Assembly (NCBI GenBank): GCA_000747625.2
Contig: JQDQ01000173.1
Span: forward strand, 1 to 40,916
Reading direction: 5' to 3'
Source: Smithella sp. SCADC
GTDB taxonomy: Bacteria; Desulfobacterota; Syntrophia; Syntrophales; Smithellaceae
DNA: 40,916 nucleotides
The notes under the pieces: model-generated
What the model was told of the DNA's origin: nothing
Databases searched by the model: none
Seen by the model: only the letters and a program-made list of their open reading frames with translations
Made by a program: the position numbers and the translations under genes
In this document: one piece after another, positions 20,133 to 25,722 of the stretch
Position numbering within the stretch: the first letter of the stretch is position 1
Layout of the letters: every line of letters begins with the position of its first letter

Positions 20133-20145
20133 ACCATACGTTGTC

Positions 20146-20299
20146 ATTCCCGCCAGGGGCGGGAATCAATAATAATATTCCCGCCCCTGGCGGGCGGGAA
20201 TTAAAGGGAGGGGGATTAATAAAAATATTTCACCCTCCCTCAATCCCTCCCCTCGAGGGAGGGAAGATTTAATTAAGTGTCATTAGGTTGGAATGACAC
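20146..20299 (+). repeat. Hairpin and CT-rich repeat cluster between hemC and cobA-hemD
   Basis: Three structures follow each other. First, an 18-bp perfect inverted repeat (20149-20166 with 20177-20194, built of CCCGCC AGGGGCGGG-type sequence, 10-nt loop). Second, a CT-rich palindromic repeat of the CACCCTCC...CTCGAGGGAGGG type (about 20203-20266). Third, a short hairpin GTGTCATT/AATGACAC (20277-20299) that overlaps the first possible start codon of the next gene. They are inserted inside the haem operon. Confidence 0.75.
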
Positions 20300-24029: not shown

Positions 24030-24039
24030 AGGGAGGTTA

Positions 24040-24616
24040 CACCCTCCCCCGACCCCTCCCCTCAAGGGAGGGGAGAATTTGAAGAATAAAGAAAGATGAT
24101 CATCGCCCACCAAGGGCGGAGAAATCATTTATTCCCTCGCCCTTGAGGGGAGAGGGTTAGGGAGAGGGTGAATTGAAGCAAATCAAAGCCAACCTGAATC
24201 AATTGGCCAAGAATTTACGAATAAACCAAACCGATGCGGAAAAAATATTATGGAAACTCTTAAAATCCAAACAATTGGATAATACAAAATTTCGAAGACA
24301 GCAACCAATTGGCAATTATATAGTTGATTTTGTTTCACTTGATAAAAAACTTGTTATAGAATTAGATGGCGGTCAGCACGCAGAAGATGAAAACAAAGAT
24401 CAAAAACGCGACAGATGGCTGATTAGTCAAGGGTTTAAAGTATTAAGATTTTGGAATAATGATGTTCTACAAAATATAGAAGGCGTACTGGAATCTATTA
24501 TGGAAAAAATTTCACCCTCCCCCAGCCCCTCCCCTCAAGGGAGGGGGGAAGAAAAGCTTAGCTCCTCTACCCTGACGGACACCTCCGGTCCTCAAGAGAG
24601 GGGAAATGTTGTCCGC
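24040..24616 (+). mobile_element. Repeat-bracketed DUF559 cassette inserted before ahbD
   Basis: A block of about 575 bp lies between hemB and the AhbD-coding region. On the left are a forward CT-rich palindromic repeat (24040-24074) and an inverted copy (24131-24170); on the right are a forward copy (24513-24548) and a degenerate one (24562-24603). Between them lies a DUF559 domain. The inverted left copy ends in GGGAGAGGGTG, which serves as ribosome-binding site for the TTG start at 24173. The layout suggests a small mobile unit, but no terminal repeats or target duplication of a known element were found. Confidence 0.55.
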
Positions 24617-25642
24617 ATGATCGCGTGGGAAGTCACTCGCAGTTGCAACTTGAACTGTGCGCATTGCCGGGCTGCGGCCAGCTGCGGACCTTATCGTGGT
24701 GAACTTTCTACAGATAAGTGCTTTAAACTTATTGATGAAATTGCTGCCCTATCTTCACCTGTGATTATTCTCACCGGCGGCGAGCCGCTGCTGCGGCCGG
24801 ATATTTTCGAAATTGCCTCCTACGGAACAAACAAGGGCCTGCGTATGGTCATGGCGACAAACGGTACTTTGGTTACTCCGACCGTCGCGAGGAAAATGAT
24901 TGAAAGCGGCATTAAAAGAGTCAGTATCAGCATTGACGGCAAGGACGCGCACAGCCATGACGCGTTTCGTCAGGAGAAGGGTGCTTTTGAAAAAGCGATG
25001 GCCGGAATGGAAATTCTCAAAAATGCCGGAATGGAATTCCAAATCAACACAACCATTACAACAGCCAATCTTGATCAGATAAAAGATATCTTAAAATTAG
25101 CCAAAAACATTGGTGCCGCGGCACATCATATTTTTCTTTTAGTGCCCACAGGTCGTGGTAAAGAACTGGCGGGGCAGGCAATAACCGCATCTGACTATGA
25201 GGAGACGCTTAACTGGTTCCATCAGGAAAGCCTGAATTGTGAGATACAGCTCAAGGCAACCTGTGCGCCTCATTATTTCCGTATCATGCATCAGAACAAG
25301 GGCAAAGTCTCGGAGCCGAAGAAAAAAGCCGGAGGCCGCTTTCACGAATCCACAAGAGGTTGTTTGGGAGGTATCACGTTTTGTTTTATTTCTCACGTCG
25401 GTCAGGTTCAGCCCTGCGGTTATTTGGAACTGGATTGCGGCAACGTGAAGAAGAAGAGTTTTGCCGCTATCTGGGAAAAATCGGAAGTGTTTCGCAACCT
25501 GCGTGATTACAGTAAGTATAGCGGTAAATGCGGTTGCTGTGAATTTATCAAGGTCTGCGGCGGTTGCCGGGCGCGCGCATACGAAGCGACGGGAAACTAT
25601 CTGGCGGAAGAGCCGCTATGTTTATACGAACCAAAAAAATAA
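24173..25642 (+). CDS. ahbD: DUF559 nuclease-like domain fused in frame to AhbD haem synthase (radical SAM)
   Basis: One frame of 489 residues covers two unrelated parts. Residues 1-113 form a DUF559 (Vsr-like PD-(D/E)xK) domain: FRRQQPIGNYIVDFV, KLVIELDGGQHA and VLRFWNNDVL. Residues 114-148 are translated CT-rich repeat (SPSPSPQGRGEE). From Met149 (24617) begins an AhbD protein of 341 aa with CNLNCAHC (158-165), TGGEPLL and a C-terminal auxiliary cluster (CGCCEFIKVCGGC). AhbD converts the propionates of Fe-coproporphyrin III to vinyls, giving haem. AhbD may be made from an internal start at 24617, where GAGAGGGG lies 14 nt upstream, or as a fusion. The siroheme decarboxylase gene follows. 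Confidence 0.85.
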   Translation: MKQIKANLNQLAKNLRINQTDAEKILWKLLKSKQLDNTKFRRQQPIGNYIVDFVSLDKKLVIELDGGQHAEDENKDQKRDRWLISQGFKVLRFWNNDVLQNIEGVLESIMEKISPSPSPSPQGRGEEKLSSSTLTDTSGPQERGNVVRMIAWEVTRSCNLNCAHCRAAASCGPYRGELSTDKCFKLIDEIAALSSPVIILTGGEPLLRPDIFEIASYGTNKGLRMVMATNGTLVTPTVARKMIESGIKRVSISIDGKDAHSHDAFRQEKGAFEKAMAGMEILKNAGMEFQINTTITTANLDQIKDILKLAKNIGAAAHHIFLLVPTGRGKELAGQAITASDYEETLNWFHQESLNCEIQLKATCAPHYFRIMHQNKGKVSEPKKKAGGRFHESTRGCLGGITFCFISHVGQVQPCGYLELDCGNVKKKSFAAIWEKSEVFRNLRDYSKYSGKCGCCEFIKVCGGCRARAYEATGNYLAEEPLCLYEPKK

Positions 25643-25654
25643 AGTTTGTTTTGT

Positions 25655-25722
25655 CATGCCGGCGTAGGCCGGTATCCATAAATTATTAAAATACTGGATT
25701 CCCACCTTCGTGGGAATGACTA
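25655..25722 (+). repeat. Dispersed inverted repeat (GTCATGCCGG...GGGAATGAC type)
   Basis: TGTCATGCCGGCGTAGGCCGG at the left and CCCACCTTCGTGGGAATGAC at the right form two hairpins around an AT-rich middle, and the ends TGTCAT/ATGAC are inverted. Repeats of this type are widespread in proteobacterial genomes. A degenerate relative lies at 38478-38573. It separates ahbD from the siroheme decarboxylase gene. Confidence 0.6.

Follow-up and report, generated by a model that had tools for sequence, protein, structure and literature searches.

DUF559 nuclease genes between inverted palindromes as candidate mobile units, with a probable old copy fused in frame to ahbD in Smithella

REP/RAYT is an established case of pairing between a repeat and a nuclease. 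The accessible parts of Di Nocera et al. (2013, PMC3733652) describe CGTC-tagged REPs as having no dedicated transposase. Holder et al. (2015, PMC4666352) report a G/C-rich intrastrand triplex motif, TM_ECO, with 23 copies in E. coli MG1655; the paper, as far as its text was accessible, shows triplex formation in solution for the E. coli motif and calls its origin unclear. By sequence, the repeat that we term class A is this motif (pyrimidine arm, purine arm and third purine strand), triplex formation being known, within the accessible text, only for the E. coli motif. On the nuclease side, the Caulobacter DUF559 protein VsrA damages DNA when a cytosine methyltransferase is absent and is tied to the SOS response, according to the available portion of its description (PMC12907096). 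Among the accessible portions of openly available papers (subscription papers and preprints were outside the scope), we found none linking DUF559 to repeats or to a mobile unit.

A profile built from 47 DUF559 domains finds 3hrl ('Endonuclease-Like Protein') at E 3e-38 and gives a weak match to 3r3p ('Mobile intron protein') at E 4e-4. We take 3r3p to be I-Bth0305I. In the accessible part of a review (PMC3943268), I-Bth0305I is listed as an EDxHD homing endonuclease.

Here we analyzed a stretch of 40,916 nucleotides (the window) from Smithella sp. SCADC, in which a DUF559 nuclease is fused in frame to AhbD. Between hemB and ahbD there is probably an old copy of a mobile element some 415 bp long, in which two inverted intrastrand-triplex palindromes enclose a Vsr-like DUF559 gene; the nuclease would drive the copying of this element.

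The fused frame and its palindromes

The forward-strand frame (24173-25642) has a TTG start, encodes 489 aa and is open throughout. Pfam places DUF559 (PF04480) at residues 8-113 (E 5.6e-43; 145.7 bits, passing the curated cut-off of 20.6 bits), and Radical_SAM (153-310) and SPASM (397-456) in the C-terminal part. NCBIfam TIGR04545 (heme b synthase AhbD) is matched with E 1.4e-171 and 570.4 bits, above its equivalog cut-off of 500, and its model position 1 aligns at residue 149. Residues 114-148 open with the right palindrome, translated as SPSPSPSPQGRGEE. Upstream of the frame are matches to HemC, a uroporphyrinogen-III methyltransferase/HemD fusion, AhbC and HemB, and AhbA is matched downstream. 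The domain order proposed in the initial annotation thus holds: a Vsr-like DUF559 domain at the N terminus, palindromic repeat translated within 114-148, an AhbD radical-SAM enzyme from 149, and an insertion that left the operon intact.

Repeats had also been noted on both sides of the nuclease part, and they are present as two direct copies and an inverted copy that runs from about 24134 to about 24169 (Table 1). The unit proper is the inner palindrome pair plus the gene, 24134-24550 (417 bp); the outer left palindrome is an extra copy. Within the inner left palindrome, GGAGAGGGTG (24161-24170) ends 2 bases before the TTG and is likely, judging from its letters, to be the ribosome site of the nuclease frame, as had been suggested. 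Both flanks of this copy (locus L001) have the intrastrand triplex layout of pyrimidine arm, purine arm and mirror third strand. Against shuffled versions of itself, the left inverted copy gives a better single-strand fold (z -2.5); the right copy does not (z -0.2). With at most 2 mismatches allowed, the pattern CCCCTCNCCTNNAGGGNGGGG occurs at 24 distinct positions of this genome (30 rows over two strands) and its reversed control at none, so chance was rejected as the source of the repeats.

Palindromes of another type (GTCAT..), without a gene, occur in the window at 25653-25720, between ahbD and ahbA, and at about 20140-20200, between hemC and the next gene, where a lone class A palindrome at 20244 adjoins them.

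Table 1. Features of the hemB-ahbD unit and the fused frame in the window
Feature	Position	Strand	Remarks
Outer left palindrome copy (tail, then hairpin, on + strand)	24037..24077	+	90% identical to right copy
Inner left palindrome	24134..24172	+	Hairpin CCCTCGCCC/GGGGAGAGGG with mirror third strand GGGAGAGGG toward gene
DUF559 Vsr-like nuclease part of frame	24173..24511	+	TTG start; domain 24194-24511
Right palindrome	24510..24550	-	Inverted relative to inner left copy; third strand toward gene
Remainder of in-frame linker to AhbD	24551..24616	+	Whole linker 35 aa, stop-free
ahbD (heme b synthase)	24617..25642	+	Begins at Met149 of fused frame; TIGR04545

Palindromes and nuclease subfamilies across bacteria

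We compared the 220 bp upstream with the 220 bp downstream of each DUF559 gene for inverted similarity in GTDB contigs. The loci were the best 80 of 591 confirmed stretches; this sample leans to class A, and its contig titles name more than 10 phyla. In 63 of the 78 scorable loci, similarity was above the 99th percentile of the values at 2396 sham positions (medians 22.25 vs 9). A generic hairpin count, a weaker test, was positive on both flanks in 55/74 loci vs 11% of 2803 shams. All 30 DUF559 loci shown from the family of this genome have palindromes, by eye, on at least one side.

A set of 133 loci was then reduced, by leaving out short or masked flanks and genes with stops, to 127 for a triplex scan and 126 for a Mantel comparison. 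The scan definition was set after examples had been seen and admits a few weak matches (L046 is A-rich); under it, a triplex motif with its third strand toward the gene lies on at least one side of 116/127 loci and on both sides of 73/127 (upstream 89, downstream 100), compared with 30/612 and 0/612 sham positions, respectively. The enrichment of palindromes at DUF559 genes, which the initial annotation had set as a check, is therefore borne out in loci of many phyla. The opposite orientation was found in 36 upstream and 43 downstream flanks, and in 26/612 shams on either side. Five of the 11 loci missed by the scan have an outward third strand; most others have longer loops or a motif on one side. 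The same layout recurs in other sequence classes, such as class B (AAAGGGGGA with AGGGGGATT) and class C (GCGGAGG with GGAGGTG).

Protein identity correlates with downstream-end/upstream-end similarity between loci (n=126; Mantel r 0.53, reached by 0/999 permutations), a value that host relatedness or base composition could raise, and a within-genome comparison was therefore added. Within five genomes holding two DUF559 subfamilies, 10/11 loci match best with their own opposite end. The repeat class follows the nuclease subfamily, even inside single genomes. From the Mantel correlation and the within-genome class match, we think it quite likely that DUF559 recognizes its own palindrome.

Among 155 genomes of the order, the median number of class A palindromes is 7 in genomes with a class A gene (n=23, a group that includes G062, which has another class, and G027, whose gene has a stop), 1.5 in those with other classes only (n=26) and 1.5 in those without a full-length DUF559 (n=106). 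Class A genomes differ from the other-class and no-gene genomes (p 3e-5 and 6e-5), which do not differ from each other (p 0.6). At least four class A palindromes are carried by 40/106 genomes without a full-length DUF559. Palindromes without the gene count against the model; gene loss, draft genomes or another agent may account for them.

Such an agent could be a RAYT-type HUH transposase acting in trans, or replication slippage, with DUF559 a passenger between inverted pairs. REP/RAYT offers a precedent, and a Y1_Tnp match is present in 111/155 genomes, including that of the window. However, no Y1_Tnp match is present in two genomes that have units and 16 and 13 palindromes, G002 (100% complete) and G007 (98%), and the set with a match does not include G128 (65 palindromes). 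A Y1 transposase in trans is thus unlikely as the general agent. The tracking of nuclease subfamily by repeat class within single genomes also speaks against a passenger role, and we regard movement by another agent as unlikely overall; recognition of the palindrome by DUF559 is the reading that we retain.

The E. coli K-12 MG1655 gene ycjD is a DUF559 gene. Motif no. 9 of Holder Table 1 (1351204-1351239) lies about 170 bp from it, and by eye a degenerate motif copy directly follows the gene. A sequence resembling the ycjD 3' end recurs between the gene and the motif. At DUF559 genes, triplex motifs are present on the downstream side only in E. coli strain KE47 and on both sides in an N. gonorrhoeae record. 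With the KE47 domain as query, ycjD was found in 3365/5426 genomes. A clean empty ycjD site in E. coli was considered and rejected, since two inspected strains that lack ycjD beside fabI carry an efflux operon there, a replacement. In the sapF-fabI interval (L226-L229), ycjD and the motif stand where other strains have the efflux operon (PMC12817139, accessible portion).

A parallel arrangement surrounds small GIY-YIG genes. Thirty GIY-YIG loci, out of at least that many, were compared with 531 shams; among these, inverted flanks exceed the 99th percentile of shams in 15 of 21 small genes and in 0 of 9 loci of the W-x-x-Y type. The inverted palindromes around small GIY-YIG genes (L164-L193, and the G003 and G008 junctions L012 and L013) include GTCATTGCCCGGC.., GTCATTGCGAGG.., GTCATTTCGACC.., GTCATACCGGC.. 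and CCCTTCGACAAGCTCAGGG.., and palindrome class and GIY-YIG subfamily seem to go together. Several have the sequence GTCATT and look like the CGTC-tagged REPs as described in the accessible text of Di Nocera et al. 2013 (PMC3733652), making the small GIY-YIG nuclease a candidate partner of those repeats. At three loci (L165, L167 and L181), GIY-YIG genes adjoin tRNA genes and parts of the tRNA end recur on the far side, which gives the appearance of an insertion.

Movement of units and history of the hemB-ahbD copy

Two pairs of near-identical units are found in different families. The units of G091 (f16) and G021 (f1) share 90.9% identity over 417 bp, and their contigs are long (at least 119 kb and 133 kb). 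Those of G049 (f15) and G036 (f2) share 95.1% over 412 bp; the G049 unit comes from a draft of 420 contigs, on a short one of them, so mis-binning could mimic transfer. For scale, AhbD identity to the window's AhbD is 66% in G036, 66% in G049, 70% in G050 (another f16 genome) and 75% in G021. In both pairs the similarity is confined within the outer palindrome edges and the neighboring frames differ. The palindromes form an inverted pair at both unit ends, so terminal inverted repeats are present; no target-site duplication was resolvable in the aligned pairs, whose flanks are too diverged. Judged from these alignments, repeat, gene and repeat are very probably mobile as one block. The claim that DUF559 and its repeats make up a small mobile unit accordingly holds for the class, with near-identical blocks in different families ending at the palindromes.

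In-frame insertion is found elsewhere. The hsdR gene (type I restriction) of G062 (L194) contains a GIY-YIG insert and a DUF559 insert, both in frame, and the HsdR homologues of G025, G029 and G013 are without them. Further in-frame cases, with genes named by eye, include a PriA-like gene and, in three records, an M14 peptidase gene. In a Synechocystis sp. B12 plasmid (L225), a DUF559 gene with CT-rich palindromes lies in or beside a broken pglX (BREX) region.

On Azospirillum plasmids, four A. brasilense copies occupy one common site. In A. argentinense, the unit stands at that site and is preceded by about 1.1 kb of additional sequence, and no strain without the unit at the site was present among the strains compared. 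At three loci labeled Azospirillum or Roseomonas (L136, L138 and L127), DUF559 units lie between apparent ruvC and ruvA genes, partly in frame with ruvC. The flanks there are 92-97% identical. Identity between the L136 DUF559 gene and the others is only 74-77%, as though one unit had replaced another or had diverged fast.

An Azospirillum site with conserved flanks but diverged DUF559 genes would suit a freestanding homing endonuclease that cuts unoccupied conserved sites, with recombination copying the unit and the palindromes only protecting or tuning it. Recurrent insertion sites in several genomes (hemB-ahbD, livH and the M14 peptidase gene) and the weak profile match to 3r3p fit that reading as well. 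Against it stand lone palindromes scattered over genomes and near-identical units at unrelated sites, and the hemB-ahbD copies form one group, as plain inheritance would give. We judge homing decidedly unlikely and prefer palindrome-bounded units moving as blocks.

Another alternative is that DUF559 is a host Vsr-like DNA-repair nuclease around which palindromes gather as terminators or mRNA stabilizers. Gene-end hairpins can act as terminators, and the accessible text on VsrA of Caulobacter (PMC12907096) connects this protein with cytosine methylation and the SOS response. Yet a host repair role leaves the presence of palindromes on both flanks, the subfamily-specific repeat class and the block transfer unexplained. 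Terminator function was rejected as the cause of the palindromes on the same three grounds, and we consider the repair reading very improbable compared with a mobile unit.

Thirty hemB-ahbD junctions were examined of 60 relatives. The nuclease is in frame in seven of them (G000, G002, G006 at a contig edge, G007, G010, G024 and G035). G011 shows a right end alone, at a contig edge; the G014 copy is decayed; and G009, G012 and G020 (partly N) hold scars. In six, the junction is short, 23-88 bp from the hemB stop to the AWEV codons (G004, G013, G015, G016, G030 and G031); these unit-free junctions support the initial annotation, which had called for a comparison of this junction in close relatives. 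Three junctions have a GIY-YIG unit or its remnant (G003, G008 and G025), three have other palindromes only (G022, G023 and G027), and six more are uninformative or different. In G003 (L012), a MITE-like stretch with terminal AGACTGTGTCGTAATT-type repeats lies inside the palindrome left of the GIY-YIG gene, and similar ends recur in L006, L020 and L023.

A DUF559 search of relatives gave 63 matches in 51 genomes, of which 42 strong full-length matches were used, G006 (contig edge) entered the tree only and 20 weaker or partial ones were excluded; it added two hemB-ahbD nuclease copies (G061 and G074) beyond the 30 junctions. The nine hemB-ahbD copies form one group in the DUF559 tree, arranged roughly by genus (two genera), with support of 90/91, under the 95/80 mark. 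Because the nine copies group together, three junctions keep scars and one copy has decayed, the simplest reading is one old insertion, inherited with later losses; repeated homing into this junction is a less likely alternative. A recent landing at this site is not borne out, and was rejected on this evidence of one group in two genera, scars and decay.

The linkers between nuclease and AhbD keep the frame, stop-free, in 9/9 copies (16-48 aa), and dN/dS of the nuclease part is 0.08-0.11 in 7/8 pairs and 0.27 in one, the pairs not being independent. Both observations would fit a functional fusion, in which the nuclease fold would assist AhbD or the operon and mobility would play no part at this locus. 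However, the six relatives with a short junction have AhbD without the nuclease part, and catalytic residues are lost in 3/8 full-length hemB-ahbD copies (G010, G024 and G074) vs 1/125 elsewhere (p 6e-4; a first, too strict version of the residue pattern, replaced after inspection, gave 3/8 vs 6/125, p 0.01). The nuclease is thus partly damaged while the frame stays, perhaps only because translation of AhbD depends on it. What is left of the right palindrome in G009 and G014 continues to be read through into AhbD. A functional fusion is highly unlikely in our estimation, and we keep to an old insertion of a mobile unit. The initial annotation had opposed a mobile unit to a conserved fusion; both apply, the former to the class and the latter to this copy.

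Proposed mechanism and comparison with known systems

We propose that the nuclease recognizes its own palindrome, perhaps folded as a single strand, and cuts or nicks there, after which repair would copy the unit to a new place. That DUF559 drives movement by such cutting and repair is an inference that we favor, though less firmly than recognition itself. Lone palindromes would be units after gene loss, or short derivatives. One insertion, probably in the common ancestor of at least two genera, would have entered the hemB-ahbD junction. There the G-rich tail of the left palindrome would have become the ribosome site ahead of the nuclease, and the right palindrome would have been left open in frame, so that AhbD is still made. 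The copy would then have been inherited, with losses, decay and partial take-over as an AhbD leader. The small size of the unit, for a DNA element needing only one 113-aa nuclease, counts against the model.

More broadly, the chances seem to us even that DUF559, with intrastrand-triplex palindromes, and small GIY-YIG nucleases, with CGTC-type and related palindromes, drive two large unrecognized classes of mobile DNA. If so, two nuclease classes would explain the origin of much bacterial intergenic palindromic repeat and of many in-frame insertions in conserved proteins, and a single-domain nuclease that reads DNA structure would suffice for transposition without a conventional transposase. 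DUF559 is tied to the Holder motif by position, subfamily-specific repeat class and block transfer, suggesting an origin for a widespread unexplained repeat; this question is approachable in E. coli K-12, which has both ycjD and the motifs. The results also caution annotators that mobile units account for some of the in-frame insertions seen in conserved proteins, HsdR and AhbD among them, and DUF559 proteins currently read as mismatch-repair enzymes deserve a second look.

Compared with TM_ECO, the motif here is the end of a nuclease unit, whereas the accessible text of Holder et al. (PMC4666352) reports no mobility gene beside the motif and does not contain the words DUF559 or nuclease; in addition, classes with other sequences have this layout here. 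CGTC-tagged REPs and Rickettsia RPEs, as far as the available text describes them (PMC3733652), likewise have palindromes able to lie in frame within genes. DUF559 repeats differ from CGTC-tagged REPs in being without the CGTC tag; it is the GIY-YIG palindromes that resemble that class. The weak 3r3p match is the likeness to EDxHD homing endonucleases such as I-Bth0305I, in the accessible part of the review (PMC3943268), but DUF559 units lie outside introns and inteins, are bounded by palindromes and have a single 113-residue domain. Terminal inverted repeats are the feature shared with insertion sequences and MITEs. YcjD, VsrA and 3hrl are alike in belonging to the common family DUF559.

The closest parallel in way of working is REP/RAYT. 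The analogy with REP elements and their transposase drawn in the initial annotation is apt in this respect, but it does not extend to the GTAG tag, none of which was seen by eye beside the hairpins in the DUF559 flanks inspected, or to the HUH gene. The DUF559 unit works like REP/RAYT but without its defining features: the likeness lies in repeats of tag plus hairpin, inverted pairs around a nuclease gene and scattered lone copies, and the gene between the repeats is DUF559 rather than an HUH (Y1) enzyme.
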